Part shown: positions 7,713 to 53,350 of the stretch, one piece after another
How the letters are laid out: the number at the start of each line of letters is the position of its first letter
Numbering within the stretch: the first letter of the stretch is position 1
Source of the DNA: Candidatus Dormiibacterota bacterium
Lineage (GTDB): Bacteria; Chloroflexota; Dormibacteria; Aeolococcales; Aeolococcaceae
Reading direction: 5' to 3'
DNA: 60,795 nucleotides
NCBI GenBank assembly: GCA_036495095.1
Contig: DASXNK010000206.1
Location: forward strand, 1-60,795
Position numbers and translations under genes: made by a program
The notes under the pieces: model-generated
Seen by the model: only the letters and a program-made list of their open reading frames with translations
What the model was told of the DNA's origin: nothing
Database searches by the model: none

Positions 7713-8733
7713 GCCGGCGCGCCAGGGCGACCACGTCGTCGAGGAGCGCCTGGGCGCCGACGACGTTCGACTCGGCGCCGGAGTTGCCGCTGACCCGGTG
7801 GCCGTCGACGCCGTCGCCGACCCGGCCCGCCACCCGGTCGTAGACCGGCCGGCCCGCGGGGTTCCGTCCGTCGAACCAGCCCCGGGCGGCGGCGGCGAGC
7901 GCGGCGTACCGCGAGTCCCCGGTGACCTCGGCGACCCGACCGAGCACGTGCACGGCCGAGGCGACGTCGTACGGCTGGGTGCGGGGCATGTCGAAGCCGG
8001 CCTCGACGATCCCGGCGAAGACCAGCTCGGCGCTGCGCCGGGCGGTGTCGACGAGGTCGTCGCGGCCCAGCCGGGCGCCGGCGTCGGCGAGCGCCGCCTC
8101 CTGGAGGTGTCCCCAGAGGTGGGGATGGCCGCGCTCGAGCGGCGCGTTCATCAGCATGCCGCCCCGGCGGCAGCCCGCCACCTCGTCGCACCAGGTGGCG
8201 AGCAGCCGGCCGATGCCGCCGTCGTCGGCGCGGTCGGGCAGGGCGAGCGCGGTCATGATGTGGAGCACGCGCACGTCGGGCGGGGCCTCGGCGTCGGCGA
8301 TGTGGGGCAGGCCACGGTGCAGCGCGGACTCGATGCGGGCGTCGTCGAGCACGCGCGACGCCCGCGCCAGCGCCAGCAGCGCCCGAGCCTGCCAGAACAC
8401 GCCCCCGGCCACCGAGGTGCGCGCGTCGCGATTGGCGGTGCCGTCCCAGTCGACGATGAAGTTGACCCAGCGCCCGTCCTCGTCCTGCATCGCGAGCACG
8501 AACTCGAGCAGGCCCTCGCACCAGCGCAGCGCCCAGGGCAGGCGGGTGGCCTCCCAGAGGTCGCAGTACAGCTCGAGCCCACGGGCGGCGTCATCGACGC
8601 AGGCGACGCCCTCGAAGCCGGCCTCGCGCGCCGCCACCGCGGTGTTCGTGGCATCGGAGTACACCGCGAGGGCGAGCGCCCCCGTCCCCAACCCGGTGAC
8701 CGGGCGGCCGAGCCGCGCGATCTGCCTCAGCAC
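7678..8733 (-). CDS. Toroid-fold (alpha/alpha) glycan-processing protein, coupled to the GT4-GH130 gene
   Basis: 351 residues from GTG 8733, which overlaps the stop of the upstream gene, so translation is coupled. The sequence is almost all helix, with repeated pairs such as 'WALRWCEGLLEFVLAMQDE', 'FWQARALLALARAS' and 'HVLGRVAEVTGDSRYAALA', typical of (alpha/alpha)6 toroids. Asp/Trp-rich loops (WVNFIVDWDG; 'SGNSGAESN' near the C terminus) could form an active site. No CAZy family is evident by eye. Coupling to a glycosyltransferase/phosphorylase fusion suggests it acts on the same saccharide, as a hydrolase, epimerase or lyase. Confidence 0.6.
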   Translation of the reverse strand: MLRQIARLGRPVTGLGTGALALAVYSDATNTAVAAREAGFEGVACVDDAARGLELYCDLWEATRLPWALRWCEGLLEFVLAMQDEDGRWVNFIVDWDGTANRDARTSVAGGVFWQARALLALARASRVLDDARIESALHRGLPHIADAEAPPDVRVLHIMTALALPDRADDGGIGRLLATWCDEVAGCRRGGMLMNAPLERGHPHLWGHLQEAALADAGARLGRDDLVDTARRSAELVFAGIVEAGFDMPRTQPYDVASAVHVLGRVAEVTGDSRYAALAAAARGWFDGRNPAGRPVYDRVAGRVGDGVDGHRVSGNSGAESNVVGAQALLDDVVALARRLSPAEALPAGA

Positions 8734-15894: not shown

Positions 15895-17508
15895 CTAGGC
15901 GCTGCTCCCCGCCGGTGTCGCCACCGGCGCGGCGGCGGTGCCGGCGCCGCGGATGAGGTCGGCCGCCTTCTCCGCGATGGCGATGGTGGGGGCGTTGGTG
16001 TTGCCCCGCACGATCGTCGGCATGATCGAGGCGTCCACCACCCGGAGCCCGTCCACCCCGTGCACCCGCAGCTCCGAGCTGACGACGGCGCCGGGGTCGG
16101 ATCCCATCCTGCAGGTCCCGGCGGGGTGGTAGTTGGTGAGGGTGCACCGGGCCAGGAAGGCGCGCACATCCCGGTCGGACAGCGAGTCCGGCACCTGGTA
16201 CGGGCTCTCGCAGTAGCGGTCGAGCTCCGGCCGCCCGCCGATCTCCATCAGCAGGCGGATGCCGTCGCTCATGCTGCGCATGTCGTTCGGCTCGGTGAAG
16301 TAGTTGTGCCGGATCACCGGCTTGGCGGTGGGATCCGCCGAGGCGAGCACCACCTCGCCGCGGCTGTCGGGCTTCAGGATGCAGGTGACGATCGTGAACC
16401 CGTGGTCGGGTGGCGCCGTCAGCCCCTCGTCGAGGTACATCACCGGGGCGGCGAGCAGCTGGATGTCGGGCGCCGGCATGCCCGCCTGGGTGCGGTGGAA
16501 ACCACCCGCCTCGGCGATGTTCGAGGTCAGCGGCCCGGTGCCGCTCTCGACGAAGGCCTGCAGGTTCTCGGCGGTGGCGGCGGTGAGCAGCGAGACCGGC
16601 TCGGAGGTGGTCCACACCGCCCCGCAGAGGGGGTGGTCCTGGAGGTTCCGGCCGACCCCGGGGAGGTCGGCGACCACCGGGATCTGCAGGCGGCCCAGCG
16701 CCTCGGCGGGCCCGATGCCGGACAGCATCAGCAGCTGCGGCGAGTTGTAGGCGCCGCCCGCGAGGATCACCTCGCGGCTGGCCCGGAACTCGAGGGTCTC
16801 GCCGAGCCGGCGGCCGGTGACGCCGGTGGCGCGGCCGCCCTCGACGAGCACGCGGTGGACCTGGACCCAGGTCTCGACGGTGAGGTTCGGCCGTCCCATC
16901 GCCGGGTGCAGGTAGCCGATCGCGGCGCTGCAGCGGCGGCCGTCCCGCTGGGTCACCTGGTGGAGGCCGACGCCGTCCTGCTCGGCGCCGTTGAAGTCGT
17001 CGTTCAGGGCCAGCCCGGCCCCCTGGGCGGCCTCGAGGAAGGCCGGCATCATCACGTTCCGGGAGCGGCCGTCGGACACCGCCAGCGGCCCGCCCACGCC
17101 GTGGTACTCGGAGGCGCCGCGCTCGTTGTCCTCCGCCCTCCGGAAGTAGGGGAGGATGCCGTCGTACCCCCAGCCGGCGTTGCCGAGCTCCTCCCACTCG
17201 TCGTAGTCGACCCGGTTTCCGCGCATGTAGATCATCGCGTTGCACGACGAGCAGCCGCCCAGGGTCCGGCCCCGGGGGAGGTAGATGCGGCGGCCGTTGC
17301 AGAGCGGCTCGGGGGCGCTCGAGTAGTCCCAGTCGAGCGCAGTCTTGAACAGGCCGCCGAAGGCCACGGGGACGTGGATGCTGTCGAGGGTGTCGGGTCC
17401 ACCGGCCTCGACCACCAGGACGCTGACGTCCGGGTCCTCGCTCAGCCGCGACGCCAGCACGCAGCCGGCCGACCCCGCCCCCACGATGATGTAGTCGTAC
17501 ACGGTCAT
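15895..17508 (-). CDS. GMC-family FAD oxidoreductase (choline dehydrogenase-like)
   Basis: 537 residues from ATG 17508, behind repeated AGGAG. FAD-binding Rossmann motif 'YIIVGAGSAGCVLASRLSE' at 5-23, GMC signature 1 around 'LPRGRTLGGCSSCNAMIYMR', signature 2 'GAYNSPQLLMLSGIG', and the active-site end 'NYHPAGTCRMG' plus 'GNTNAPTIAIAEKAA'. Such enzymes oxidise primary alcohols, some through to the acid. It is the last gene of an operon with an epoxide hydrolase (32 bases upstream) and a histidine kinase, suggesting that its substrate is the diol produced by the hydrolase. Cytoplasmic or membrane-peripheral. Confidence 0.9.
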   Translation of the reverse strand: MTVYDYIIVGAGSAGCVLASRLSEDPDVSVLVVEAGGPDTLDSIHVPVAFGGLFKTALDWDYSSAPEPLCNGRRIYLPRGRTLGGCSSCNAMIYMRGNRVDYDEWEELGNAGWGYDGILPYFRRAEDNERGASEYHGVGGPLAVSDGRSRNVMMPAFLEAAQGAGLALNDDFNGAEQDGVGLHQVTQRDGRRCSAAIGYLHPAMGRPNLTVETWVQVHRVLVEGGRATGVTGRRLGETLEFRASREVILAGGAYNSPQLLMLSGIGPAEALGRLQIPVVADLPGVGRNLQDHPLCGAVWTTSEPVSLLTAATAENLQAFVESGTGPLTSNIAEAGGFHRTQAGMPAPDIQLLAAPVMYLDEGLTAPPDHGFTIVTCILKPDSRGEVVLASADPTAKPVIRHNYFTEPNDMRSMSDGIRLLMEIGGRPELDRYCESPYQVPDSLSDRDVRAFLARCTLTNYHPAGTCRMGSDPGAVVSSELRVHGVDGLRVVDASIMPTIVRGNTNAPTIAIAEKAADLIRGAGTAAAPVATPAGSSA

Positions 17509-17539: not shown

Positions 17540-18445
17540 TCAGCCGGCGTGCGCGGGCACGGGCGAGCCGATGAAGTCGAGGACCAGACGGTTCACCTCG
17601 TCGGGCCTCTCCAGCTGCATGAAGTGCCCGCAGTCCTCGAGCACCTCGACCCGGCACTCGGCGGTGCAGTAGGCGGCGCCCTCGTGGAAGTGCTCGGGGA
17701 TGAAGAGGCCGTCGTCGGCACCGGCCATGAACAGCGCCGGGGCGCCGAGGTTCTCGCCGGTGGTCGCCATCTGGGCCTCGATGAGGTCGTCCGACTGGCG
17801 GGTGCCGTCGACGGTGCATCGGTAGTAGCCGACCGCCGCCTCGAACACCTCGGGGCGCGACAGCATGGCGCGGATCCGGGCCATGTCGTCGGGGTCGATC
17901 GCCAGCCCCGGTGACCAGTCGCGCCAGATGTTCTCGATGGCGGCGCAGTCGTCCCCGCTGAACGACATCTCGTAGATGCCGGGCAGCTGGAGGTACCACA
18001 TGTACCAGGAGCGCTTCATCTGCTCCCAGTCGGTGATCAGCTTCTGGAACGCGAGCGCGTTCTGCGGGACCGCCATGCAGACCACCTTCGCCATCCGCTC
18101 GGGAGCGAGGATGCCGGCGCCGCAGGAGGCGACCGATCCCCAATCGTGACCGATGATCACCGAGCGCTGATCGCCGCCGAGGGCGTCGAGCAGCGCCAGG
18201 GCGTCCAGCGCCAGGGTGGCGCACTGGTACTGGTTGTCGGGGGCGAGGCCGGTGGGGTGGTAGCCGCGCATCCACGGCGCCACCGCGTGCCAGCCGGCGG
18301 CGGCGAGGGCGGGGAGCATGTGCCGGAAGGTGGGCGCGTGGTCGGGGAAGCCGTGCAGGCAGAGCGCGAGCGGACCTCCCTTCGGCCCCGCGTCGATGTA
18401 GGCGAAGTCGATCCCGTTGGCGTGGACGCGTCCCGTCGGCTCCAT
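17540..18445 (-). CDS. Epoxide hydrolase-type alpha/beta hydrolase
   Basis: 301 residues. Oxyanion motif HGFPDH at 31-36; nucleophile Asp101 in GHDWGS. The Asp (not Ser) and the Trp after it are typical of soluble epoxide hydrolases and separate it from esterases; fluoroacetate dehalogenases have Arg there. The acid is probably Asp244 (AGADDG) and the base His274 (DCGHF). ATG 18445 starts six bases after the kinase stop. Expected reaction: epoxide + water -> vicinal diol. A haloalkane dehalogenase remains possible. Middle gene of the operon 19876->15895. Confidence 0.85.
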   Translation of the reverse strand: MEPTGRVHANGIDFAYIDAGPKGGPLALCLHGFPDHAPTFRHMLPALAAAGWHAVAPWMRGYHPTGLAPDNQYQCATLALDALALLDALGGDQRSVIIGHDWGSVASCGAGILAPERMAKVVCMAVPQNALAFQKLITDWEQMKRSWYMWYLQLPGIYEMSFSGDDCAAIENIWRDWSPGLAIDPDDMARIRAMLSRPEVFEAAVGYYRCTVDGTRQSDDLIEAQMATTGENLGAPALFMAGADDGLFIPEHFHEGAAYCTAECRVEVLEDCGHFMQLERPDEVNRLVLDFIGSPVPAHAG

Positions 18446-18451
18446 GTCTGC

Positions 18452-19660
18452 TCACCCCCTGAGTGATCTGCTGTCGATGTCGTCGTCGTGGCGCGGGATG
18501 GTGCCCCGCAGGGTGGTGCCGCCGTCCTGGTTGCGCACCAGGTCGAGCTCGCCGCCGACCCGCTCCAGCCGCCGCCGGAGCGATGCGATGCCGTAGTGGC
18601 GGCCGTCGCGGGGCAGGTCGCAGGGCACGATGTCGTCGGGCAGCCCGCAGCCGTCGTCCTGGACGAGCACGTCGGTGCCCTCCGGGCCGTGGTGCAGGGT
18701 GACCAGCACGCTGGTGGCGCCGGCGTGCCGGGCGGCGTTGTGCAGCCCCTCGCGCACCACCGCCAGCAGCGCCGCCTCCTGCTGCGCGCTCAGCGCCACC
18801 GGCGGCCCGATCACGGCGAGGTCGGCGGGCAGCCCGGTGCAGTCGGAGAAACAGCCCACGTCGACCCCGATCGCGGCCGCCAGCCCGTCCCCGGCGCGCG
18901 CCGGGGCGAGGGCGTGCAGCGCCTCGCGCAGCGACGAGGCGGCGCGCGAGGCCTGGGCCTCGACCAGCTCGAGCTGCGCGGCGAGGTCCTCGGCGGCGGG
19001 ATCCAGCCCGGCCCGCGCCCGGTGGGCGGCGGCCCCGATGCCGAAGAGCAGCGGGGCGACGTGGTCGTGGAGGTCTCGGGAGATCCGCTGCCGCTCGGCC
19101 TCGACGCCGAGCCGCTGGGCGCGCTCGGCGTGGAGGGCGGCGCCGAGGGCCGGGCCGGCGGTGGCGGCGAGCTCGCGGGTCACCGCGGCGACCCGGTCGC
19201 CGAGGTGGCCGGCGGAGCGGTTCACGGAGTAGAGGACGCCGATCACCTGCTCGCGGAAGCGCAGCGGCACGCAGACGATGGCGTGGACGCCCTCGCCCCG
19301 CACCACCCGGTCGATCAGATCCTCGGAGACCTCGGGCTCGGTGCCGAGGTCGGCGACCGCCACCGGCCTGCCCGAGCGCAGCACCCGGCCGCCGGCGCCG
19401 TCGCCGGCGCGCACCCGGAGGCCGCGCACCTCCGCGGTGCGCACCCGCCAGGCGCCGCGCATCACCAGCAGCTCCGGCTCCTCGCGGATCGCCATCGCGG
19501 TGGCGTCGGTGGCGGTGATCGCCCCCAGCGCACGCGCGGTCCGGGTGGCGATCACCGCGGCGTCGAGCAGTCCGACGATGCGCCGAGAGGCCCGCGACAG
19601 CCGCACCATGTCGTCGATCGCCAGCCCGGCGCGGTCCTCGACGGCGCTGCGGCGGCCCAC
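18452..19660 (-). CDS. GAF-domain sensor histidine kinase, HisKA_3 (NarX/DesK-like) type
   Basis: 402 residues from GTG 19660. A GAF domain covers about 25-185 ('GDGAGGRVLRSGRPVAVADL', 'HAIVCVPLRFREQVIGVLYS'). The dimerisation helix carries the phospho-acceptor His in 'ERQRISRDLHDHVAPLLFGI' (about 213-232). The ATPase domain has the N box 'REGLHNAARHAGAT' and G boxes 'VQDDGCGLP' and 'HYGIASLRRRLERVGGE'. No membrane helix: it senses a cytoplasmic ligand through GAF. No receiver-type response regulator is adjacent; the LAL protein next door has a LuxR HTH but no receiver. It starts four bases after the small upstream gene. Confidence 0.85.
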   Translation of the reverse strand: MGRRSAVEDRAGLAIDDMVRLSRASRRIVGLLDAAVIATRTARALGAITATDATAMAIREEPELLVMRGAWRVRTAEVRGLRVRAGDGAGGRVLRSGRPVAVADLGTEPEVSEDLIDRVVRGEGVHAIVCVPLRFREQVIGVLYSVNRSAGHLGDRVAAVTRELAATAGPALGAALHAERAQRLGVEAERQRISRDLHDHVAPLLFGIGAAAHRARAGLDPAAEDLAAQLELVEAQASRAASSLREALHALAPARAGDGLAAAIGVDVGCFSDCTGLPADLAVIGPPVALSAQQEAALLAVVREGLHNAARHAGATSVLVTLHHGPEGTDVLVQDDGCGLPDDIVPCDLPRDGRHYGIASLRRRLERVGGELDLVRNQDGGTTLRGTIPRHDDDIDSRSLRG

Positions 19661-19663
19661 CAG

Positions 19664-19876
19664 CTACAGCAGACCGGGGAGGGGCCACTCCTCCCGGTCG
19701 TCCGGGAGCGGCTCGGCGGCGGGGTCGAGCGGCGGTGGCTCGAGCAGGCTCAGCAGCTCCATCCAGCCGCTGAACGGCATCGCGTGGACCGCGCCCCCCC
19801 GCCGGAGCAGGCCCTCGACGCGGTTGTCCGCGGTCCGCCGCAGATCGATGACGTAGCGCACCGCCGACCTCGTCAT
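19664..19876 (-). CDS. Small protein leading the kinase/epoxide hydrolase operon
   Basis: 70 residues from ATG 19876. Short beta strands ('VRYVIDLRRTADNRVEGLLR', 'AVHAMPFSGWMELLSLLEP') and an acidic Pro-rich tail. It resembles small uncharacterised proteins with a '..L.R..GR..PFSG..EL...LE' pattern in Actinobacteria and Chloroflexota (from memory). The stop is three bases before the kinase GTG. It is the first gene after the shared promoter, with a very short predicted leader and no Shine-Dalgarno. Confidence 0.55.
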   Translation of the reverse strand: MTRSAVRYVIDLRRTADNRVEGLLRRGGAVHAMPFSGWMELLSLLEPPPLDPAAEPLPDDREEWPLPGLL

Positions 19877-19897
19877 CCGGGTTCGTCCGACGCCGCG

Positions 19898-19989
19898 ATC
19901 GTAGGCGGGCGGCGGCCGGGTGACGACACGGGGGTCCGTAGTTCACTGCGGCGCCACGGTCGCGCCCGACCCACGGAAACCGGTGGGCG
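19898..19989 (-). promoter_or_regulatory. Shared regulon promoter, copy B (small protein-kinase-epoxide hydrolase-GMC operon)
   Basis: Three blocks in the direction of transcription. First, CGCCCACCGGTTTCCGTGGG and following (from 19989), an imperfect palindrome. Second, TACGGACCCCCGTGTCGTCA (from 19940). Third, a -10-like TACGAT (19903-19898) followed by CGCGGCGTC. The same three blocks occur at 22841-22931 with spacings of 49/48 and 37/37 bases. The -35 position reads TCGTCA, weak, as expected for an activator-dependent promoter. The distal block begins directly after the stop of the LAL gene. Confidence 0.75.
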
Positions 19990-22779
19990 TCAGCTCTGGA
20001 TGAGCCGCGCCGCCAGCTGGCTCCTCGAGCCCACCCCGAGCTTCGAGTAGATGTTCTTCAGGTGGTACTCGACGGTGTTGACGCTGACCACCAGCTGGGC
20101 GGCGACCTCCCGGTTGCTCAGCCCCTGCGCCACCCGGCGGGCGACCGCGAGCTCCTGGGGGGTGAGGCTCGCCCGCACCCCGGCGCCGCCCGAGGCGCTG
20201 ACCACCCCGGCCACGGCGAGCTCGCGGTCGACGGCCTCGAGGTAGGGCCGGGCGCCGAGCTGGAGGAAGCGCTCCCGGGCCGCCCTCAGGTGTGCCACCG
20301 CCGCCGCCCGCTTGCCGGCGCGGCGGAGGAAGCGGCCGTGGGCGGCCTCCAGCCGGGCCCGGTCGAAGGGGATGGACACCGCCTCGGCGTGGCCGTGGCC
20401 GGCGTGGAAGGCGGCGGTCGCGGCATCGCCGCGCCGGCGCGCCGCCTCGAGGTTGCCCCGCACCCGGGCGGCGTTGACCAGCGCCGAGCGCCGCCCGCGG
20501 GCCGCCGCCCGTTCCTCGAAGGGCACCAGCACCGCCTCGGCCTCGTCGAGGCGGCGCAGCCCGATCAGCGCCTCGGCGAGCAGCTCCTGCCAAGGCCACC
20601 GGCCGCCGGGCTCGTCGATGCCCTCGCGGTCGGGCATGTCCCGGATCGGCAGCAGGGCCTCGACCACCGCCGCGTGGTCGGCGCCGGCGGCGGCGATCTG
20701 GGCACGGGCGATGCCGACGTCGGCGACGCTGTTGTCGTCATCGATCATCCGCGCGTACCGCGCCGCGGCGTCGGCGTGGGCGTGGGCGGCGGCGGAGTCG
20801 CCGCGGCCGGCGAGGGGCGCGGCGGCGGTGGCGTGGGTCCAGCTCAGCGTCCAGACGTGGTCGGCGTCCTCGCACAGCGAGGTGGCCAGGGTGGCATGGG
20901 CGATGGCGTCGTCCCACGCCCCGAGCCGGTACTCGACCGCCCCGAGGAAGCAGATGCTCGCGAACTGCATCATGAAGGGGCCCCAGCGTGCCGCCGCCGG
21001 CGCCAGCGCGGTGAAGTCCTCGCAGGCGCCGGCGAGGTCGTCGGTCATGAAGCGCATCAGGCCGCGCGCGTACATCGGCTGGACGTCGTCGGCGCCGAGG
21101 TCGCGCGGTGACCGGGGGAGGAAGGCGATCTCGCTCAGCCCCTCCTCGGACCGGCCGGCGTAGGCGAGCCCGTAGGCGAGGGTGTACCAGGGCGCGAGCT
21201 GCTGGCTCGTGCCCGCCGCCGCGGCCAGGGCGCGGCGCGCCCAGGTGACCAGCTGCGGGCCCCGCGAGCGCCGCACCAGCACCAGGGCGACGTCGGAGGC
21301 GATCTTGCTGGCGAGCTGCCGGTCGCCGCCGGAGTCGCGCGCCTCCCAGGCGGCGAGGAGCAGCTTCTCGCCCTCGACCGGGCGGCCGGAGTGGAAGGCG
21401 AGGCGTCCCAGCAGGTAGCGCGGGTAGGGGCCGTCCGCACAGCCGCGGACCTCTCCCGCGAAGGCCGCGGCGCGGGCCACCTCGCCGCCGACGAGCAGGA
21501 GGTCGACGCTCTCGAGCAGGCGCCGCTCGCGTCCCTCGCCGGGCGGGCTGAGCCGGCTCGCCCGCAGCATCGCCGCCGCCGCCCGGGGGGTGGCACCCCG
21601 GCCCGCCTCCCGCCGCGCGTAGTCGGCGAGGTCGCCGGCGAGCACCTCGTCCTCCTCGAACGCGGCCGCGCTCCGGTGGAACAGCGACGCCGACTCCTCG
21701 CCGATCAGCTCGGCGGCGCGGAGGTGCAGCGCCGCCCGCCGCGCCGGCCCGATGTCGTGGTAGACGGCCGCCCGGGTCAGCGCATGGGGGAAGGCGACGG
21801 CGTGCTCGCTCTCGAGGTTGCGCGGCTCCAGCAGCCGGGCCGCCATCGCGCCCTCGAGCGCGGTCAGCGGCTCGTCGACCCCGCCGAGGCGCTGGGCGAG
21901 GGCGAGCGGGCACTGCAGGCCGAGCACCGAGGCGGCGACCACCAGCCGGCACACGTCCGGGGAGCAGCCGGCCAGCCGGCTGAGCACCTGCACGCTGAAC
22001 GAGCGCGGCGAGGGGAGGGGCGCGTCGGAGGCGCGGAGCAGCCGCTCCAGGGGCAGCTCCTCGAGCAGCGCGCGGACGTGGAGCGGGTTGCCGCCGGAGT
22101 GGTCGCGGAGCTGCTCGGCGAGCTCCACCGGCAGGTTGCCGGCGATGACGCCGCTGGCCAGCTCCTGGAGCTCGGTGGCGTCGAGGCCGCGCAGCCGCAG
22201 GTGGACGCCGCGCTCGCCGGTGAAGAGCCGGCGCAGCCCCTCGGGGAGGCGGGCATCCTCGTCGCGGATGGCGACGACGGCGAGGACGCGGTCGGCCTGG
22301 AGCCGCCGCAGCGCGAAGAGCAGGGCGAGCAGCGAGGGCAGGTCGGCCCACTGGGCGTCGTCCACGACCACCGCCACCGGGCCGTCCGCCTGGAGACGGC
22401 CGAGCAGGTCGACCAGCGCGGCGCCGATCGTGAACGCCTCCGGGCTCTGGGAGGACGTCTGGCCGAGCGAGGCGAGCTCGTCCGGCAGCGGCACCCGGGC
22501 GGAGCGGGCCAGCTGCTCGGCGACTCCGTAGGGCAGCAGGTGCTCCTCGTGCTCGCCGCCGGCGCGGAGCACGCGCACCCCGGTGGCGCCGGCGAGGAAG
22601 CGCTGCAGCAGGGTGGTCTTGCCCATCCCCGGAGCCCCCTCGACGAGCACGAAGCAGGGGCTGCCCCCGTCCGCCTCCTCCAGCGCCACGCGCAGCAGGC
22701 CGAGCTCATCCAGCCGCCCGACGAAGGCCTCCGCCCGCAGCCAGCGCCCCTCCCGCGTCCCGGTGGTCCCGGTGCTCAC
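19990..22779 (-). CDS. LAL-type LuxR family transcriptional activator
   Basis: 929 residues from GTG 22779. AAA/STAND ATPase domain at the N terminus with Walker A GAPGMGKTT (48-56) and Walker B 'VAVVVDDAQW' (about 135-145). Helical tetratricopeptide-like repeats fill 400-850. A LuxR-type helix-turn-helix ends the protein ('LTPQELAVARRVAQGLSNRE', 'NTVEYHLKNIYSKLGV'). Such LAL (MalT-like) proteins bind a small ligand and ATP and then activate catabolic operons. The gene lies between two operons that start with the same promoter, one copy touching its stop codon and one upstream of its start, which makes it the obvious candidate activator. Confidence 0.92.
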   Translation of the reverse strand: MSTGTTGTREGRWLRAEAFVGRLDELGLLRVALEEADGGSPCFVLVEGAPGMGKTTLLQRFLAGATGVRVLRAGGEHEEHLLPYGVAEQLARSARVPLPDELASLGQTSSQSPEAFTIGAALVDLLGRLQADGPVAVVVDDAQWADLPSLLALLFALRRLQADRVLAVVAIRDEDARLPEGLRRLFTGERGVHLRLRGLDATELQELASGVIAGNLPVELAEQLRDHSGGNPLHVRALLEELPLERLLRASDAPLPSPRSFSVQVLSRLAGCSPDVCRLVVAASVLGLQCPLALAQRLGGVDEPLTALEGAMAARLLEPRNLESEHAVAFPHALTRAAVYHDIGPARRAALHLRAAELIGEESASLFHRSAAAFEEDEVLAGDLADYARREAGRGATPRAAAAMLRASRLSPPGEGRERRLLESVDLLLVGGEVARAAAFAGEVRGCADGPYPRYLLGRLAFHSGRPVEGEKLLLAAWEARDSGGDRQLASKIASDVALVLVRRSRGPQLVTWARRALAAAAGTSQQLAPWYTLAYGLAYAGRSEEGLSEIAFLPRSPRDLGADDVQPMYARGLMRFMTDDLAGACEDFTALAPAAARWGPFMMQFASICFLGAVEYRLGAWDDAIAHATLATSLCEDADHVWTLSWTHATAAAPLAGRGDSAAAHAHADAAARYARMIDDDNSVADVGIARAQIAAAGADHAAVVEALLPIRDMPDREGIDEPGGRWPWQELLAEALIGLRRLDEAEAVLVPFEERAAARGRRSALVNAARVRGNLEAARRRGDAATAAFHAGHGHAEAVSIPFDRARLEAAHGRFLRRAGKRAAAVAHLRAARERFLQLGARPYLEAVDRELAVAGVVSASGGAGVRASLTPQELAVARRVAQGLSNREVAAQLVVSVNTVEYHLKNIYSKLGVGSRSQLAARLIQS

Positions 22780-22840
22780 CGGCCAACGGTAGCATCGGCC
22801 GCAGCGACGCCGAGATCGGCCTCGGGGGGAGAGCCGGGGC

Positions 22841-22931
22841 GGCCCACGGGTTTCCGTGAGCCGGGCCGCCGCCCGTCCCGGCGGTGACTACGGACGCCGG
22901 TGTCGCCATCGGGCGCATCCCTTCGTAGGAT
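22841..22931 (+). promoter_or_regulatory. Shared regulon promoter, copy A (diiron oxygenase/2-oxoacid dehydrogenase operon)
   Basis: Block 1 GGCCCACGGGTTTCCGTGAG at 22841-22860; block 2 TACGGACGCCGGTGTCGCCA at 22889-22908; block 3 TAGGAT at 22926-22931 followed by CGCCGCGTC. Identity to copy B is about 22/26, 17/20 and 13/15 over the three blocks. The DNA between blocks is not conserved, so selection on the blocks is likely. Block 1 is also about 60 bases upstream of the divergent LAL start and may autoregulate it. Confidence 0.75.
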
Positions 22932-22964
22932 CGCCGCGTCCGGATGCCACGGGGAGTCGGTGTG

Positions 22965-24491
22965 ATGATCAACACGGTCGAGGCCCACCAGCGAGTCAAG
23001 GACCTGGAGTGGTCGCCGTCGTACACGGTCCCCCGCGATCGCTACCCCACCAAGTACCGGATCCCCCCCAGGACCAAGGACCCGTTCCGCACCCTGATCC
23101 GCGACTACTGCTCGATGGAGCAGGAGAAGGACGACCGCCAGTACGGCTCGCTCGAGGACGTCCTCGCCCGCACCGACGCCCCGCAGCACACCGAGCGCCG
23201 CTGGCTGGAGATCCTCAAGGCGGTGCTGCCGATGGTCAACTTCGCCGAGTACGCGGCGATGAAGAGCTGCGCCCAGCTGGTCGACACCGTGTCCAACCAG
23301 GAGCTGCGCCAGGGCTACCAGGCCCAGATGATCGACGAGGTCCGGCACACCCATCAGGAGATGTACCTGAGCCGCTACTTCGCCAAGCGCGCCCCCGACC
23401 CCGAGGGCTTCGCCCAGGGGCAGCGCTTCAAGGGCCAGAACATCTTCGGCCGGGCCTCGCGCAGCGCCTTCGAGACGTTCTTCATGGGCGACCCGATCGA
23501 GGGGGTGATGAACCTCCAGGTGGTCACCGAGACCGCGTACACCAACCCGCTCTTCGTGGCCATGACCGAGATGGCCGCGGCCCAGGGCGACCAGGTCACC
23601 CCCGGCGTCTTCCTCAGCATCCAGTCGGACGAGGCCCGGCACATGGCCAACGGCTACAGCACCCTGGCCGCGGTCATCTCCGACGCCGCCAACCACGAGT
23701 ACCTCCAGGACGACTTCGACCGCGGTTTCTGGCGGCAGCACAACTTCCTCGACACCTTCCTCGGCGCCGTCTACGACTACTCGCAGGTGCAGCGCGGCGC
23801 CAGCTACCACGAGCGCTGGCGGGAGTGGGTCGGCGAGGACTGGGCGGGCTCGTTCATCGCCAAGCTCGAGCCCTTCGGGCTGCGGGCGCCGAGCGATTTC
23901 GCCCTCGCCGAGCAGCGGGTGCCCTGGATGTCCCACAGCATGTTCATGGTCGCGGTGGGCGGCTGGCCGCTGATGTACTGGCGGCAGTCGCCGCTCACCG
24001 ACGCCGACATGGAGTGGTTCGAGGAGAAGTACCCGGGCTGGTACGACAACTACGGGTGGTTCTACGAGGGCATGCGCGAGATGCAGGAGCCCGGATCGGG
24101 CAACCCCTTCCTGCTCTTCCCGGAGATGCCGCCGGTCTGCCGGGTCTGCCAGCTGCCGTGCATCCTGCCCCGCCTCGACATCAACGACCTCCGCATCAGG
24201 GAGCACGCCGGGCGGCGCCACGCCTTCTGCTCGGCGCCGTGCGAGCGGTTCTTCGACCAGGAGCCGCTGCGCTATCTCGGCTACCGGAGCTTCTGGGAGA
24301 TCTGGGACGGCACCGGGCTCGACGAGTACATCGTGAAGCAGGGGATGCTGCGGGCCGACGGGAAGACCCTCATCCCCCAGCCGCACCTCTCCGACGACCC
24401 GAGGATGATGTGGACGCTCGACGACATCCGGGCGCTCGACTACGAGATCCGCGACCCGCTGCAGAACCCCGACTCCATCTATCTCATCTAG
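22965..24491 (+). CDS. Soluble diiron monooxygenase, hydroxylase alpha subunit (PrmA/MimA-like)
   Basis: 508 residues from ATG 22965 (GGGGAG eight bases upstream); an earlier in-frame ATG at 22944 would fall almost at the predicted transcript start. Diiron ligands by family pattern: Glu95 (NFAEYA), Glu125 and His128 (DEVRH), Glu189 (TETAYTN), Glu223 and His226 (SDEARH). The C-terminal third has CRVCQLPC and FCSAPC, the YHS-like Cys cluster of propane/toluene monooxygenase large subunits, and 'KTLIPQPHL' near the end. Family members hydroxylate alkanes or epoxidise alkenes with a beta subunit, coupling protein and reductase. None of these is in the window. Confidence 0.88.
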   Translation: MINTVEAHQRVKDLEWSPSYTVPRDRYPTKYRIPPRTKDPFRTLIRDYCSMEQEKDDRQYGSLEDVLARTDAPQHTERRWLEILKAVLPMVNFAEYAAMKSCAQLVDTVSNQELRQGYQAQMIDEVRHTHQEMYLSRYFAKRAPDPEGFAQGQRFKGQNIFGRASRSAFETFFMGDPIEGVMNLQVVTETAYTNPLFVAMTEMAAAQGDQVTPGVFLSIQSDEARHMANGYSTLAAVISDAANHEYLQDDFDRGFWRQHNFLDTFLGAVYDYSQVQRGASYHERWREWVGEDWAGSFIAKLEPFGLRAPSDFALAEQRVPWMSHSMFMVAVGGWPLMYWRQSPLTDADMEWFEEKYPGWYDNYGWFYEGMREMQEPGSGNPFLLFPEMPPVCRVCQLPCILPRLDINDLRIREHAGRRHAFCSAPCERFFDQEPLRYLGYRSFWEIWDGTGLDEYIVKQGMLRADGKTLIPQPHLSDDPRMMWTLDDIRALDYEIRDPLQNPDSIYLI

Positions 24492-24505: not shown

Positions 24506-25546
24506 ATGGCGGACGCGAGGCCGGCGGTCGAGCCGGAGGCGGCGAACCCGGCCGACCGGGAGGACTGGCGCGGCCTGCTGGTGGAGATGATCCGGGCGCG
24601 CCACTGGTCGACGCGCCTCTTCAACCTGCAGCGTCAGGGCAGGATCGGCACCACCGCGCCGATCGACGGCGAGGAGGCGGCCGTGGTGGGGTCGGCGGCG
24701 GCGATGGACCCGGCCACCGACTGGGCGGTGCCCCAGTACCGCGAGCCGGTCGGCCTCGGCCGCTTCGGCGACGCGGTGCTCCTCCACACCCTCCTGTACC
24801 ACTCCGGCCACCCCGACGCGGGCGGCTACCCGGCCGACGTGCGGGTGTTCCCCACCCAGATCTCGATCGCCGCCCAGATCCCCCACGCGGTCGGGCTGGC
24901 CTGGGGGATGCGGCTGCGCGAGGAGCCCGGCGTGGTGCTCTGCTACTTCGGCGACGGCGCCACCTCCGAGGGCGACTTCTACGAGGCCGCCAACCTCGCC
25001 GGGGTGGTGCGGGCGCCGGTGATCCTGCTCTGCGTCAACAACGGCTGGGCGATCTCCACGCCGGTGCGCGAGCAGACCGCCGCCGGCTCGGTGGCGGCGA
25101 AGGCCGTCGCGGTGGGCATCGCCGGCGAGCGGGTCGATGGCAACGACGTGCTCGCCGTGCGGGCGGCGACGGCGGCGGCGCGGAGGCGGGCGGCCGCGGG
25201 CGAGGGCCCAACCCTCATCGAGGCGGTCACCTACCGGATGGGGCCGCACACCACCGCCGACGACCCCACCCGCTACGTGCCCGCCGAGGAGCTCGAGAGC
25301 TGGCGCGCCCGCGACCCGATCGCCGGTTTCCGCCGCCATCTCGAGGAGGCCGGGGCCTGGGACGCCGACCGGCAGCGGGCCGCCGAGGAGGAGGCCGACC
25401 GCCGCTTCGACGCCGCCCTCGCCGCCGCCGAGGCGACCCCGCTCCGCACCGACTGCTTCATCGACTCCGCCTATGCATGGCCGACCCCCGAGCTGGAGCG
25501 CCAGCGGCGCACCATCCAGGACGCCGCCACCGGGGAGGGCCGCTGA
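24506..25546 (+). CDS. 2-oxoacid dehydrogenase E1 alpha subunit
   Basis: 346 residues. The thiamine-diphosphate site is clear: 'CYFGDGATSEGDFYEAANLA' then VNN about 28 residues after GDG. 'LQRQGRIGTTAPIDGEEAAV' and 'FPTQISIAAQIPHAVGLAWG' fit PdhA/BkdA1-type E1 alpha. ATG 24506 is 15 bases after the monooxygenase stop. It decarboxylates a 2-oxoacid and passes the acyl group to the E2 lipoyl arm. Whether the substrate is pyruvate, branched-chain oxoacids, acetoin or a new compound cannot be told from the sequence; the operon context argues for a dedicated catabolic substrate. Confidence 0.9.
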   Translation: MADARPAVEPEAANPADREDWRGLLVEMIRARHWSTRLFNLQRQGRIGTTAPIDGEEAAVVGSAAAMDPATDWAVPQYREPVGLGRFGDAVLLHTLLYHSGHPDAGGYPADVRVFPTQISIAAQIPHAVGLAWGMRLREEPGVVLCYFGDGATSEGDFYEAANLAGVVRAPVILLCVNNGWAISTPVREQTAAGSVAAKAVAVGIAGERVDGNDVLAVRAATAAARRRAAAGEGPTLIEAVTYRMGPHTTADDPTRYVPAEELESWRARDPIAGFRRHLEEAGAWDADRQRAAEEEADRRFDAALAAAEATPLRTDCFIDSAYAWPTPELERQRRTIQDAATGEGR

Positions 25547-26532
25547 TGCCGGTGATGACGATGCTGGAGGCGATCCGGCACACCCTCCACGAGGAGATGG
25601 CGCGCGACCCTCGGATGATGGTGCTGGGCCAGGACGTCGCCGCCCTGGGCGGCGTCTTCCGCGCCACCGAGGGGCTGCGCGACCGCTTCGGCGCCGGCCG
25701 GGTCGTGGACATGCCGCTCGCCGAGGCGGTGATCGTCGGCGCCAGCCTGGGCCTGGCCTGGTCGGGGATGGTGCCGGTGGCGGAGATCCAGTTCCTCGGC
25801 TTCACCCAGCAGGCCTTCCACCAGGTGGCCGGGCAGCTGGCCCGGATCCGCGCCCGCACCGGCGGGATGCGCGGCTGCCAGGCGACCATCCGCGCCCCCT
25901 TCGGCGGCGGGGTGCGCGCCCCCGAGCTCCACTCCGACTCGCTGGAGGCGCAGTTCGCCCAGTGCCCGGGGTTGAAGATCGTCGCCCCGGCCTCGGCGGC
26001 CGACGCCAGGGGGCTGCTCGCCACCGCGATCCGCGACCCCGACCCGGTGCTCTACCTCGAGCCGCTCCGCGGCTACCGCGCCATCAAGGACGAGGTGCCG
26101 GAGGGCGAGCACACCGTGCCCTTCGGGCAGGCGCGCGAGGTGCGGCCCGGTGACGACTGCGTGATCATCGCCTGGAGCGCGATGGTGCAGACCTGCGTCC
26201 GTGCCGCCGCCGAGGTGGAGGCGGCGACCGGGGCCTCGATCGGGGTGCTCGATCTCCGCACCCTGGTGCCCCTCGACGTCGAGAGCATCGTCGCCGCCGC
26301 CCAGCGGGCGGGCAGGGTGGTGGTCGCCCAGGAGGCGCCGCCGACCGCGGGCTTCGCGTCCGAGGTGGTGACGGTGGTGCAGGAGAACGCCTTCTACTCG
26401 CTGGAGGCGCCGGTGGCGCGGGTCAGCGGCTTCGACACCCCCTACCCGCCGGGGATGCTCGAGGAGCACTGGCTGCCGGGCAGCCGCCGGGTCGCCGCCG
26501 CGGTGCGGCGCACCCTCGAGGCCCGGGCGTGA
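25546..26532 (+). CDS. 2-oxoacid dehydrogenase E1 beta subunit
   Basis: 328 residues. ATG 25546 overlaps the E1 alpha stop (TGATG), a sign of fixed stoichiometry. Typical blocks: 'MMVLGQDVAALGGVFRATEG', 'DMPLAEAVIVGASLGLAWSG', 'HSDSLEAQFAQCPGLKIVAP', and a C-terminal transketolase-like domain 'VLDLRTLVPLDVESIVAAA'. 'RVVVAQEAPPTAGFASEVV' and 'RVSGFDTPYPPGMLEEHWLP' match the PdhB/BkdA2 family. Forms the alpha2beta2 E1 with the upstream gene. Confidence 0.92.
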   Translation: MPVMTMLEAIRHTLHEEMARDPRMMVLGQDVAALGGVFRATEGLRDRFGAGRVVDMPLAEAVIVGASLGLAWSGMVPVAEIQFLGFTQQAFHQVAGQLARIRARTGGMRGCQATIRAPFGGGVRAPELHSDSLEAQFAQCPGLKIVAPASAADARGLLATAIRDPDPVLYLEPLRGYRAIKDEVPEGEHTVPFGQAREVRPGDDCVIIAWSAMVQTCVRAAAEVEAATGASIGVLDLRTLVPLDVESIVAAAQRAGRVVVAQEAPPTAGFASEVVTVVQENAFYSLEAPVARVSGFDTPYPPGMLEEHWLPGSRRVAAAVRRTLEARA

Positions 26533-27776
26533 GCACGGTCGAGTTCCGGCTCCCCGACCTCGGGGAGGGGCTGGAGGGTGCGGAGATCGTGAGCTGGCTG
26601 GTCGAGGAGGGCGCCACCGTCGCCCGCGACCAGCCGCTGGTCGCGGTGTCCACCGACAAGGCGGTGGTCGAGCTGCCCTCGCCGGTCGCGGGCCGGCTCG
26701 GCGCCCGCCGGGGCGTCGAGGGCGAGCTCATCCGCGTCGGCGAGGTGATCGCGGTGATCGAGGCGGTGGCCGCACCGGCGGCGGCGGACAACGGCGTGCC
26801 CGCGCGCCCCGCCGCGACCGCCGCGGCCGTCGCGACCGCCACGACCACCGCCGCCCCCGGCCGGCCCCGCGCCGCGCCGGTGGTGCGCCGCCTCGCGGTC
26901 GAGCTGGGCGTGGCCCTGGAGTCGGTGGCCGCCAGCGGGCCCGAGGGCCGCGTCCTCGCCGACGACGTCCGCCGCGCCGCCGCCCGGGGCGCCGGGCCGC
27001 CGGCCCCGCCGCCGGCTCCGCTCGCCTCCCCGCCGCCGCCACCGCGGCCCGCCGCCACCGGGCTCGGCCAGGCCGCCCCCGGCCGGCACCGGCTCACCGG
27101 GGTGCGGCGGCGCACCGCCGAGGTGATGGCCGCCGCGTGGTCGACGATCCCCCACATCGCGAACATGGACGAGGTCGACGCCACCGAGCTGCTGGAGGCG
27201 CGCACCCGGCTGCGCCGCGCCGCCGGCGCCGGCGCCGGCGCCGAGCTGATCGGCATCGTCCCCCTGCTGGTGATGGCGGCGGTGCGCACCCTGCGTCGCT
27301 TCCCGCTGGTCAACTCCACCCTCGACGCCGCCGCCACCGAGGTCGAGGTGCACGCCGACGTCCACATCGGGCTGGCGGTCGCGACCGCCGACGGCCTGGT
27401 CGTGCCCGTCATCCATCACGCCGACCGCCGCGACCTGCTCGACCTCGCCACCGAGGTCGAGCGCCTCGCCGCCGCGGCGCGTGGCCGCACCCTGCGCCGC
27501 GAGGAGCTCACCGGCGGCACCTTCACGATCAGCAACTACGGCAGCCTCGGCGGCGCGCGGTTCTCGATCCCGATCATCCGGCCCCCGGAGGTGGCCATCC
27601 TCGGCTTCGGCAGCATCGCCCCCCGGCCGCTGGTGGTCGACGGCGAGGTGGTGGCGCGGCCGGTGCTGCCCTTCTCGGTGACCGTCGACCACCGCGTCCT
27701 CGACGGCGACGTGGTGTGCGCGTTCAGCGCCGCCCTCGCCGCGACCCTCACCAACCCCATCAGCCTCCTCCTGTAG
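26529..27776 (+). CDS. 2-oxoacid dehydrogenase E2 (dihydrolipoamide acyltransferase)
   Basis: 415 residues from GTG 26529, overlapping the E1 beta stop. One lipoyl domain (1-78) with the modified Lys in 'STDKAVVELPSP'; an Ala/Pro-rich swinging linker; an E1/E3-binding domain around 'APVVRRLAVELGVALESV'; a second linker; and the catalytic core from about residue 190 with 'GTFTISNYGSLGGARFSIPI' and the active-site DHRVLDGD near the end. One lipoyl domain only, as in BkdB-type E2. Transfers the acyl group to CoA. Confidence 0.93.
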   Translation: MSTVEFRLPDLGEGLEGAEIVSWLVEEGATVARDQPLVAVSTDKAVVELPSPVAGRLGARRGVEGELIRVGEVIAVIEAVAAPAAADNGVPARPAATAAAVATATTTAAPGRPRAAPVVRRLAVELGVALESVAASGPEGRVLADDVRRAAARGAGPPAPPPAPLASPPPPPRPAATGLGQAAPGRHRLTGVRRRTAEVMAAAWSTIPHIANMDEVDATELLEARTRLRRAAGAGAGAELIGIVPLLVMAAVRTLRRFPLVNSTLDAAATEVEVHADVHIGLAVATADGLVVPVIHHADRRDLLDLATEVERLAAAARGRTLRREELTGGTFTISNYGSLGGARFSIPIIRPPEVAILGFGSIAPRPLVVDGEVVARPVLPFSVTVDHRVLDGDVVCAFSAALAATLTNPISLLL

Positions 27777-27784
27777 GCGCGATC

Positions 27785-29170
<1,386 letters not shown>

Positions 29171-29190: not shown

Positions 29191-30570
29191 ATGGCGACGA
29201 GCGCCGCGGTGGCCGAGCTGAGGGAGCGTCTCGGAACCCGCCTCACCACCTCCGACACCGAGCTCCAGGCGCACGGCCGCGACGAGTCGTACCACCGGCC
29301 GGTGGCTCCGGAGGCGGTCGCCTACCCGGAGAGCACCGAGGAGGTGGCGACGGTGGTGCGCACCTGCCACGCCCACGGCGTCCCGATGGTGCCGTACGGC
29401 ATCGGCACCAGCCTCGAGGGCAACATCGCCGCGCTCCGCGGCGGGGTCAGCATCGACCTGTCCCACCTCAACCGCATCGTCACGGTGCGTCCCGACGACC
29501 TCGACGTGACCGTGCAGGCGGGCGTGACCCGCCGCCAGCTCAACGACGTGCTCCAGCCGCAGGGGTTCTTCTTCCCCGTCGACCCGGGCGCGGACGCGAC
29601 CCTCGGCGGGATGGCCTCGACCGGCGCCTCGGGGACCACCACGGTGCGCTACGGCACGATGCGGGAGAACGTGCTCAGCCTCACCGTGGTGCTCGCCGAC
29701 GGCCGGGTGGTGCGCACCGCGCGGCGCGCCCGCAAGTCCTCCGCGGGCTACGACCTCACCCGCCTCTTCGTCGGCTCGGAGGGGACCCTGGGGGTGATCA
29801 CCGAGCTCACCCTGCGGATGTACGGCACCCCGGAGGCGATCTCCGCGGTGGTCTGCAGCTTCCCCACGGTCGAGGCGGCGGTGCAGACGGTGATCCGGAC
29901 CATCCAGATCGGCATCCCCGTCGCCCGGGCCGAGCTGCTCGACGCCGTCGCCGTCGACGCCGTCAACCGTCACAGCGGTCTCGACCACGCCGTCGGACCC
30001 ACCCTCTTCCTCGAGTTCCACGGCAGCCCCGCCGGGGTGCGCGAGCAGGCCGCCGCGGTGGCCGAGATCGGTGCCGAGCACGCCGCCGGCGAGACCCGCA
30101 CCGCCACTCGCGCGGAGGACCGCAACCGGCTCTGGCGGGCCCGCCACGAGGCCCTGTACGCGCTGCTCGCGCTCCGCCCCGGGTCGCGCGGGGTGATCAC
30201 CGACGTCTGCGTGCCCATCTCCGGCCTCGCCGCCTGCATCGCCGAGACCCGGGCCGACCTCGAGGCCTCGACCCTGCTCGCGTCGATCGTCGGCCACGTC
30301 GGCGACGGCAACTTCCACACCGTGTTCGTCGTCGACCCCGGCGGCGACGCCGAGATCGAGGAGGCGCGCAACCTCAACCGCCGGATGGTGGAGCGCGCCC
30401 TGGCGGCGGGCGGCACCTGCACCGGAGAGCACGGCATCGGCCACGGCAAGCGCGAGTTCCTCCGCGCCGAGCACGGCACCGGCGTCGACGTCATGCTCGC
30501 CATCAAGCAGGCCCTCGACCCTCTGAACCTGATGAATCCGGGGAAGGTGGTCGGCCCCGACGAGGGCTGA
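29191..30570 (+). CDS. FAD-linked 2-hydroxyacid dehydrogenase (GlcD/D-lactate dehydrogenase type)
   Basis: 459 residues; ATG 29191 is chosen because GAGGAG lies eight bases upstream. PCMH-type FAD domain: 'AVAYPESTEEVATVVRTCHA', 'VPYGIGTSLEGNIAALRGG', 'GADATLGGMASTGASGTTTV', 'GSEGTLGVITELTLRMYGTP'. C-terminal cap with 'HVGDGNFHTVFVVDP', 'CTGEHGIGHGKREFL' and the family ending 'LDPLNLMNPGKV'. It oxidises a D-2-hydroxyacid (lactate, glycolate, 2-hydroxyacyl) to a 2-oxoacid, exactly what the E1-E3 complex encoded before it would consume. Last gene of the operon. Confidence 0.9.
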   Translation: MATSAAVAELRERLGTRLTTSDTELQAHGRDESYHRPVAPEAVAYPESTEEVATVVRTCHAHGVPMVPYGIGTSLEGNIAALRGGVSIDLSHLNRIVTVRPDDLDVTVQAGVTRRQLNDVLQPQGFFFPVDPGADATLGGMASTGASGTTTVRYGTMRENVLSLTVVLADGRVVRTARRARKSSAGYDLTRLFVGSEGTLGVITELTLRMYGTPEAISAVVCSFPTVEAAVQTVIRTIQIGIPVARAELLDAVAVDAVNRHSGLDHAVGPTLFLEFHGSPAGVREQAAAVAEIGAEHAAGETRTATRAEDRNRLWRARHEALYALLALRPGSRGVITDVCVPISGLAACIAETRADLEASTLLASIVGHVGDGNFHTVFVVDPGGDAEIEEARNLNRRMVERALAAGGTCTGEHGIGHGKREFLRAEHGTGVDVMLAIKQALDPLNLMNPGKVVGPDEG

Positions 30571-30805
30571 CCGGGGCCCGGTGTCGCGGACCCGCGGCGG
30601 GTCGGTCCCGACAGCGACGGACGTGTCAAGGGACGTGAGCTCCGTGTCACCGGACGGTGACGGGGGTGGGCGGACACGCCCCCAGGTCCCTTCGACGCCG
30701 ATATCCGGCATAGGGTGTCGCCAGAAGGCGCGGACCGGTGCTGGAGTGCCGGATCACACACCCGTACAGGTGGCGGTGAGCTGGCGCCCGGACCGAGAGG
30801 AAACC

Positions 30806-32143
30806 ATGATCAGACGGAAATTGACGATGGCGGGTGTCGCCCTGCTGGCGGTCGGAGTCGGCGGCCTCGTGGTGCCGACGCGGGTGCACGCGGCGGTCGG
30901 TCCGGTGGCGCACATCTTGCTCTCGATCGATCCGACGCACCTGTCGGTGGACCCGCTCAGCGGCAGCAACATCGCCGGATACAGTGTGACCGCGACCGAT
31001 GCCGGTGGCGCCGGTGTGGCTGCCGCCACCATCGTCCTGCACAGCAGCGTCGCGAGCGGGCTGGGTGTCACCTTCGGCTCGGTGAGCGACGACGGGAACG
31101 GCGCCTACAGCGGAGGCCTCAGCTCCGGCACGAGCCCCGGGGCGGAGAACATCACGGCCACCAGCGGGGGAATCACCTCCAACACCGTCGTGCTGACCCA
31201 GTTCGGGCCGGCGACCACCATCGCGGTCACCCTCAGCCCAAGCTCCATCCCCGCGGATGGACAGGCCACCAGCGTCGCCACCGTCACCGTCCGCGACGCC
31301 GGGGGAAACGGCGTGTCCAACGAGAACATCAGCCTGAGCGGTGACGCCGCGCAGGCCGCGATCGGCACGGGGACGGACAACGGAGACGGCACCTACACCT
31401 TCGTGCTGACCGCGCCGACACATCAGGGCGTGGACGGCCTCACCGCCGACGACATCGTGAACAACGCGCCGACCATCAGCAGCCAGCTGGTGACCCTGAC
31501 GGAGACCGAGTCCACCGTGGAGAAGTTCGTCCACAGCGCCTACTTCACCCTTCTCGGCCACGACGTGGACCCGGGCGGGCTGACCTACTGGGTCGACGCG
31601 ATCAACAGCGGCACCCCGCGCACCGCGCTGGCGTCGGCCCTCGCCACCTCTCCCGCCTACCGGACCCGGGTCATCGGCGGCACCGGCGCCGACAGCTTCT
31701 ACCAGTTCTACCTGGGCCGTCCCTCGGATCTCAGCGGCGTCGACTATTGGGTCGGCCAGATGGCGTCGGGCATGACCTTCGAGCAGGTCCGGCTCCGGTT
31801 CGTCGGCTCGCCCGAGTACTTCACCCATCACCAGAGCGATCCGTCGAAGACCATCGACGCGCTGTACACGGACGTGCTCGGAAGGTCCGACACCAACGAT
31901 CCCGGCAAGGCCTACTGGATGGCCAACTTCAACGCCACCACCATCGCCGCCCAGTTCCTCTTCAGCCCGGAGGGACGCGCCCACCTGGTCGACGGCGACT
32001 ACAACCTCATCCTCCGCCGGGCGGCCGATGCGCAGGGTCAGTCGTTCTGGACGGGCCGGCTGCTCAGCGGCGCCAGCGACGAGAACATCATCACCCTGAT
32101 CCTCGGGTCCCAGGAGTACCTGGACAACGACCTCACCCACTGA
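30806..32143 (+). CDS. Secreted protein with two Ig-like (invasin-type) domains and DUF4214
   Basis: 445 residues. ATG 30806 follows GAGAGG and opens a Sec signal peptide (MIRRK, hydrophobic core, cut after VHA near 30). Residues 35-135 and 140-235 are two Big_1-like Ig domains with the typical 'DGNGAYSGGL' and 'DNGDGTYTFVLTAPTHQG' turns. From about 245, DUF4214 repeats follow: 'FVHSAYFTLLGHDVDPGGLTYW', 'FYQFYLGRPSDLSGVDYW', 'LYTDVLGRSDTNDPGKAYW' and 'YNLILRRAADAQGQSFW'. Bacterial Ig plus DUF4214 proteins are surface or secreted and often bind glycans or other cells. A strong terminator follows. Confidence 0.85.
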   Translation: MIRRKLTMAGVALLAVGVGGLVVPTRVHAAVGPVAHILLSIDPTHLSVDPLSGSNIAGYSVTATDAGGAGVAAATIVLHSSVASGLGVTFGSVSDDGNGAYSGGLSSGTSPGAENITATSGGITSNTVVLTQFGPATTIAVTLSPSSIPADGQATSVATVTVRDAGGNGVSNENISLSGDAAQAAIGTGTDNGDGTYTFVLTAPTHQGVDGLTADDIVNNAPTISSQLVTLTETESTVEKFVHSAYFTLLGHDVDPGGLTYWVDAINSGTPRTALASALATSPAYRTRVIGGTGADSFYQFYLGRPSDLSGVDYWVGQMASGMTFEQVRLRFVGSPEYFTHHQSDPSKTIDALYTDVLGRSDTNDPGKAYWMANFNATTIAAQFLFSPEGRAHLVDGDYNLILRRAADAQGQSFWTGRLLSGASDENIITLILGSQEYLDNDLTH

Positions 32144-53274: not shown

Positions 53275-53350
53275 CCCGGGCGGGATCCGCGGCACGATCG
53301 CCGCGGATCTCGACCGGCGGCGGATCCGCCGGGCGGCTTACTCTGACGGC

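Follow-up and report, generated by a model that had tools for sequence, protein, structure and literature searches.

Paired inverted operators at two catabolic promoters as a candidate docking site for a MalT-like LAL regulator in an uncultured soil bacterium

Results

Two promoters on either side of a gene for a MalT-like regulator of the LAL type are proposed, with a probability of about 0.8, to be activator-dependent promoters of the sigma-70 type with paired operators for the product of that gene. They lie in a stretch of 60,795 nucleotides (the window), which corresponds to contig C206 in a genome of 4.4 Mb and 216 contigs. Judged from sequence, the element shared by the two promoters is very probably the docking site of the MalT-like activator, because a third copy in the same genome and two copies in a sister species adjoin related genes. 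The LAL protein is the most likely binder, since LAL paralogues that share its distinctive recognition helix are found together with the element.

Shared Blocks of the Two Window Promoters

The right promoter, on the plus strand, consists of block 1 (CCCACGGGTTTCCGTGAG, 22843-22860), block 2 (CTACGGACGCCGGTGTCGCCA, 22888-22908) and a -10 block (TAGGATCGCCGCGTC, 22926-22940) whose hexamer, TAGGAT (22926-22931), predicts a start near 22938. The left promoter, on the minus strand, has block 1 (CCCACCGGTTTCCGTGGG, 19987-19970) just beyond the stop codon of the LAL gene, followed by block 2 (CTACGGACCCCCGTGTCGTCA, 19941-19921) and a -10 block (TACGATCGCGGCGTC, 19903-19889) with the hexamer TACGAT (19898-19903) and a start expected near 19891. 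Measured from start to start, blocks 1 and 2 are 39 bases apart at the right promoter and 40 at the left, and block 2 is 38 bases from the -10 at both. With zero mismatches, each block pattern matches exactly two places in the 4.4 Mb genome, namely the window promoters.

An initial description made from the letters of the window (the sequence-only reading) had reported three shared blocks at both promoters, and direct reading locates all of them. Its spacings of 48 versus 49 and 37 versus 37 bases were taken between other reference points, and the one-base difference between the promoters is reproduced. Its observation that the DNA between the blocks differs, while blocks and spacings are kept, is also borne out. 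Two points are narrowed. The operons diverge from each other as described, but the LAL gene (19990-22779, minus strand) lies on the strand of the left operon, so that only the right operon diverges from it. The long -10 block is seen at both window promoters, but the extension GATCGC-x-GCGTC is absent from the general element (the third copy, described below, has TAGCAT), whose -10 reduces to TANNAT.

A Single Imperfect Dyad Underlies Blocks 1 and 2

The promoter had been described as an array of three blocks; all three are present, but the first two are related to each other. Blocks 1 and 2 both represent one imperfect dyad, YACGG-N4-CSGTG, inverted relative to each other and with their axes separated by 44-45 bp, and the promoter is for this reason regarded as a two-operator promoter. 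Block 1 corresponds to the distal operator, which on the other strand reads TCACGGAAACCCGTG at the right promoter (minus-strand reading of 22843-22860) and CCACGGAAACCGGTG at the left (plus-strand reading of 19970-19987), with CTACGGAAACCCGCG as a further reading. The proximal operator lies within block 2 (CTACGGACGCCGGTGTCG, 22888-22905, plus strand; CTACGGACCCCCGTGTCG, 19924-19941, minus strand), and the block 2 readings are CTACGGACCCCCGTG, CTACGGACGCCGGTG and CTACGGACTGCCGTG. All bases but one in the readings of both blocks fit the dyad.

At a single window site, block 1 agrees with block 2 at 10-11 of 16 positions, and such a comparison is weak by itself because ∼2%-19% of random stretches reach as much. 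The case for the dyad, weak at any one site, rests on the consistent register in all copies and on the diverged fifth copy, in which GACCACGGA...CCGTG is common to both blocks. It counts against the reading that block 1 of this copy has a spacer of 3 bases, not 4. A 14-letter dyad pattern (YACGGAMNNCSGTG) has nine matches in the genome, five of which are known operators, and the reversed control has four. The additional single-operator matches were set aside: those on C16, on C79 at 29115 and on C178 look coding, and the one on C47 may be intergenic and is without a partner.

When the first base of TANNAT is numbered -12, the proximal dyad is centred at about -42.5 and occupies the place of the -35, with no -35 hexamer; the axis of the right distal operator is at about -87. 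The distance from ACGGA to the -10 is 36, 36, 37, 37 and 36 bases at the five sites. In four copies, 37-38 bases separate the distal operator from the proximal one; the fifth has 26, so that the operator has moved by 11-12 bp, or roughly one helical turn. With the starts as predicted, a dyad over the -35 at a fixed distance from the -10, and no good -35 hexamer, is the arrangement of class II promoters of the LuxR/MalT type. The presence of more than one operator per promoter, as in MalT-type promoters with several boxes, is consistent across the set, each single comparison being weak. Such a geometry is expected of a class II activator of the MalT/AlkS type that is aided from a helper site on the same side of the helix. 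The sequence-only reading had left it at binding of block 1 and/or block 2; as the blocks are inverted copies of one dyad, the LAL protein probably binds both.

Further Copies in the Genome and in a Sister Species

The genome-wide search that had been suggested revealed a third copy on contig C79 (41241), the sole extra match in the genome when two mismatches are allowed in block 2. Here, GGTTTCCGTAGG lies 39 bases upstream of block 2 and TAGCAT 39 bases downstream, and the copy precedes a gene for the solute-binding protein of an ABC importer. An inverted repeat, TTGTGCGG...CCGCACAA, lies between the blocks of this copy (L054, ∼8211-8240) and is less perfect in the sister species. The C79 blocks alone, used as an out-of-sample test, score 34/40 and 33/40 at the window promoters, the best of each strand; the maximum in 100 Markov-shuffled strands of 60.8 kb was 27.

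The fourth copy, on contig C286 of a congeneric sister species (G008, catalogued as a Chloroflexi MAG), is the orthologue of the C79 site. Between the two species, this site is identical at 15/15 positions in block 1, 17/24 between the blocks, 26/26 in block 2, 8/13 from block 2 to the -10 and 79/165 in the upstream stretch. The blocks are thus kept in the relative while the DNA between and upstream of them has diverged, and for this site the conservation asked for at the outset is borne out. In 110 genomes of the class, the combined pattern matches only the genome of the window (three sites) and G008.

A sequence model built from four copies (the two in the window, C79 and the G008 orthologue) recovers three sites in the genome of the window and none else at E≤1. 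Across the 110 class genomes, its best-scoring new match is on contig C203 of G008 (20.9 bits; the known copies score 81-92). This diverged fifth copy reads CCACGGAATCCGTGGG, then GACCACGGACACCCGTGTCGCCA, then TAGGAT, and sits on a short contig with no LAL gene in view. The gene that follows encodes a protein of 63 aa, 51% identical to the 70-aa protein encoded behind the left promoter, and the model had been built without knowledge of this homologue. With three sites in one genome and two in one sister species among the 110 class genomes, the motif is not randomly spread; random spread would have spoken against the sequence-only reading.

All of the evidence is drawn from a pair of congeneric species, and the sister genome is 67% complete. 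In it, the right operon was not found intact, and G009, of the same genus and 68% complete, has neither the element nor a LAL of this group. A shorter pattern searched in 400 genomes of the phylum, a sample without G008, gave only the sites of the window genome and one match in G104. This sole match outside the genus lacks the GTGTC half and, with reversed-pattern controls matching at a similar rate, was dismissed as chance. No element was found at other di-iron monooxygenase loci (C116 and C196 of the same genome; C50, C184 and C149 of the sister; two Gammaproteobacteria MAGs). Likewise, there is no convincing element near LALs of 36%-45% in other genera and classes, and none near those of 40%-45% in other classes.

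A LAL Subfamily Accompanies the Element

The LAL gene encodes a MalT-like STAND protein of 929 aa, the proposed binder. Its N-terminal ATPase domain (AAA_16, 4.4e-18; Walker A GAPGMGKT), its C-terminal GerE helix-turn-helix (HTH; 6.5e-17, residues 871-923 of 929; helix SVNTVEYHLKNIY) and its length of about 900 aa place it in the LAL family. It does not qualify as a MalT orthologue by NCBIfam PRK04841, scoring 30.7 bits against a cut-off of 537 and in the HTH part only.

Relatives matching at 61% are encoded on C79 and, in G008, on C286, which also carry the third and fourth copies. The next closest LAL in the window genome reaches only 31%-32%. The recognition helix of the group at 61%-64% is VVS[VL]NTVEYHLKNI[YF], while the other LALs examined in this genome have SPRTVEYHL[HRG]KVF. 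The element and this LAL subfamily co-occur in both species of the class that have either, and they share a contig at two of three kinds of locus. This association supports the earlier proposal that the LAL protein contacts the blocks at both promoters.

G008 has two other relatives on other contigs, at 64% and 45%. No element was found alongside the 64% LAL, whose contig breaks off at its 5′ end. Downstream of the 45% LAL (C396), a solute-binding protein is again encoded, along with a homologue of the 70-aa protein. A block-1-like sequence, GGTTTTCCGTGGGG (L062, 6622-6607, minus strand), lies about 40 bases past the stop codon of this LAL gene, a position that corresponds to that in the window. 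It is followed by a run of Ns, with no clear block 2 found, and we regard it as suggestive.

Beside the LAL of the third locus lies the gene for a PucR-type regulator, which could act there; neither this regulator nor the kinase of the left operon was found to be common to the element loci. The LAL paralogue and the PucR-type regulator are clustered with genes for alcohol, lactate/malate and aldehyde dehydrogenases and a BMC shell protein (C79, L059, 5432-10971), possibly representing a microcompartment pathway.

Genes behind the Promoters

The right operon, on the plus strand, begins with the alpha subunit of a soluble di-iron monooxygenase hydroxylase (22965-24491), whose closest solved relative is the methane monooxygenase hydroxylase alpha. 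It continues with 2-oxoacid dehydrogenase E1 alpha (24506-25546), E1 beta (25546-26532), E2 (26529-27776) and dihydrolipoamide dehydrogenase (E3, 27791-29170) and probably ends with an FAD-linked 2-hydroxyacid oxidase/dehydrogenase (29191-30570). The operon has no beta, gamma, regulatory or reductase gene to go with the alpha subunit. A second alpha gene that looks equally alone is found on C116 (69%), and C196 has two PF02332 genes in a row. Directly behind the right operon is a gene for Invasin_D3/Big_1 Ig-like domains with DUF4214 repeats (30581-32143).

The left operon, on the minus strand, encodes first the small 70-aa protein (19664-19876), which matches no Pfam or NCBIfam family, then a sensor kinase with GAF, HisKA_3 and HATPase domain matches (18452-19660), an alpha/beta hydrolase resembling haloalkane dehalogenases and epoxide hydrolases (17540-18445) and a choline-dehydrogenase-like GMC oxidoreductase (15895-17508). 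No response regulator accompanies the kinase among the window genes scanned. Together, the operons may plausibly oxidise a small organic substrate via a hydroxy acid and an oxo acid to an acyl-CoA. Elsewhere in the window, one protein combines a glycosyltransferase with a GH130 mannoside phosphorylase domain (8727-11147, minus strand), and a long protein with a KdpD sensor domain and a Usp domain has no Pfam kinase domain match (53180-55600).

The 70-aa protein occurs above noise three times in the 110 class genomes, in this genus only, and each time it either follows the element or shares a contig with a LAL of this group. MalT is known to have partners of the feedback inhibitor or co-sensor type, MalY and Aes. 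By analogy, the small protein might be such a partner of the LAL protein, and promoter, LAL and small protein might form one transferable switch that serves various catabolic operons; we regard this as a rather doubtful proposal.

Discussion

Proposed Mechanism

In the proposed mechanism, inducer and ATP would open the LAL protein and lead to its multimerisation. The multimer would bind both operators together, roughly on one face of the helix, with the proximal operator (block 2) standing in for the -35 and the distal operator (block 1) as its inverted copy 44-45 bp upstream, and would recruit RNA polymerase to the TANNAT -10. The predicted regulon comprises the monooxygenase/2-oxoacid dehydrogenase operon, the small protein/kinase/hydrolase/GMC operon and the branched-chain-type ABC importer on C79. 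If the LAL protein activates at all elements, one signal would therefore induce both window operons and the importer. The binding, the activation, the inducer, the start sites and any cross-control by the LAL paralogue on C79 are all steps that we infer.

Alternative Explanations

The sensor kinase of the left operon raises the question of whether its partner, a NarL-type response regulator, binds the operators, with the LAL gene merely nearby. A regulator of this type would have a GerE HTH like that of the LAL protein, NarL-family dimers too bind inverted repeats, and the kinase resembles NarX, MadS and MctS. Mycobacterium NBB4, moreover, has a LuxR regulator and a kinase that accompany a group 6 di-iron monooxygenase cluster (PMC8784404). 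This explanation is nonetheless improbable: the window genes scanned include no response regulator, and the third locus has a LAL and a PucR regulator instead, leaving the LAL as the shared neighbour of the element. Some other common regulator, encoded elsewhere, might equally bind the element, with the LAL gene an extra target or a bystander. The fifth copy, on its LAL-free short contig, would allow this, as would the fact that LAL contact is itself deduced. The co-occurrence of element and LAL subfamily in two species, on one contig at most kinds of locus, argues against it, as does the lack of both in G009 (68% complete), and we give this idea a similarly small chance.

The likeness of the two promoters could also be a trace of recent intergenic duplication, with no shared regulation behind it. 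The window sites are separated by 3 kb, and their likeness in the -10 region extends further than that of either to the third site, but the blocks are also present on a different contig and in the sister species. Recent duplication is rejected because the DNA between the blocks has diverged while blocks and spacings are kept, and its probability is minimal. Hardly more credit is due to the notion that an alternative (ECF) sigma factor recognises block 2 and the -10 block as its -35 and -10. The -35 region is conserved and CGTC is found beyond the -10 in the left, right and fifth copies, but the third and fourth (C79-type) copies are without CGTC, and the ECF promoter, which calls for it in all copies, is rejected on that ground. 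Moreover, TANNAT is a -10 of the sigma-70 type, and block 2, a dyad of 18 bp, exceeds the length of a -35 and recurs inverted upstream as block 1.

Significance and Comparison with Known Systems

Activation by the LAL protein through paired operators, the preferred reading, yields a candidate LAL operator defined at the sequence level, together with a small regulon, from uncultured soil bacteria of a lineage for which we know of no regulator-operator pair. It also links a methane-monooxygenase-like subunit, a 2-oxoacid dehydrogenase, the kinase/hydrolase/GMC operon and a distant importer in one likely pathway and offers a compact promoter for the heterologous study of how LAL proteins use two operators. 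AcoK of Klebsiella pneumoniae is an ATP-binding MalT-type regulator of acetoin catabolism whose operon includes E1, E2 and E3 of a complex of the 2-oxoacid dehydrogenase type. The window LAL is likened to it by description, and the window operon is not assigned to acetoin.

AlkS of Pseudomonas putida GPo1 recognises an inverted repeat of ∼20 bp at the monooxygenase promoter PalkB, and is, like the regulator proposed here, a LAL/MalT-type activator of a monooxygenase operon acting through an inverted-repeat operator (PMC8784404). Its targets are the membrane hydroxylase AlkB and its own promoter, in contrast to the soluble di-iron alpha subunit, the 2-oxoacid dehydrogenase and the importer found here (PMC8784404). 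E. coli MalT forms multimers, and its binding to the MalT boxes is cooperative (PMC4381067). Like the window LAL, it is an ATP-binding STAND protein with a C-terminal GerE HTH, and like the element, its promoters have several boxes (PMC4381067, PMC10427625), but the boxes, GGGGA(T/G)GAGG as quoted elsewhere (PMC7567727), are unlike those found here.

MalT of Actinoplanes sp. SE50/110 activates many genes around its own via a palindrome, TCATCC-N5-GGATGA, that overlaps the -35 (PMC7567727). There, as in the window, a MalT-like LuxR regulator is encoded within the gene region that it controls (here by proposal), with the target promoters clustered around it, and the motif is kept in related genera (PMC7567727). 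The 3′ end of the operator is ∼34 bases before the start, compared with ∼36 here (PMC7567727). The operator sequence differs (YACGG-N4-CSGTG here), as do the target genes, and in the portion of the report consulted each promoter has one palindrome, whereas here there are two, inverted and at fixed spacing (PMC7567727). On these comparisons, the present system convincingly appears to work like the known MalT and AlkS switches, its own features being the sequence of the operator and the pairing of two inverted sites in helical phase.
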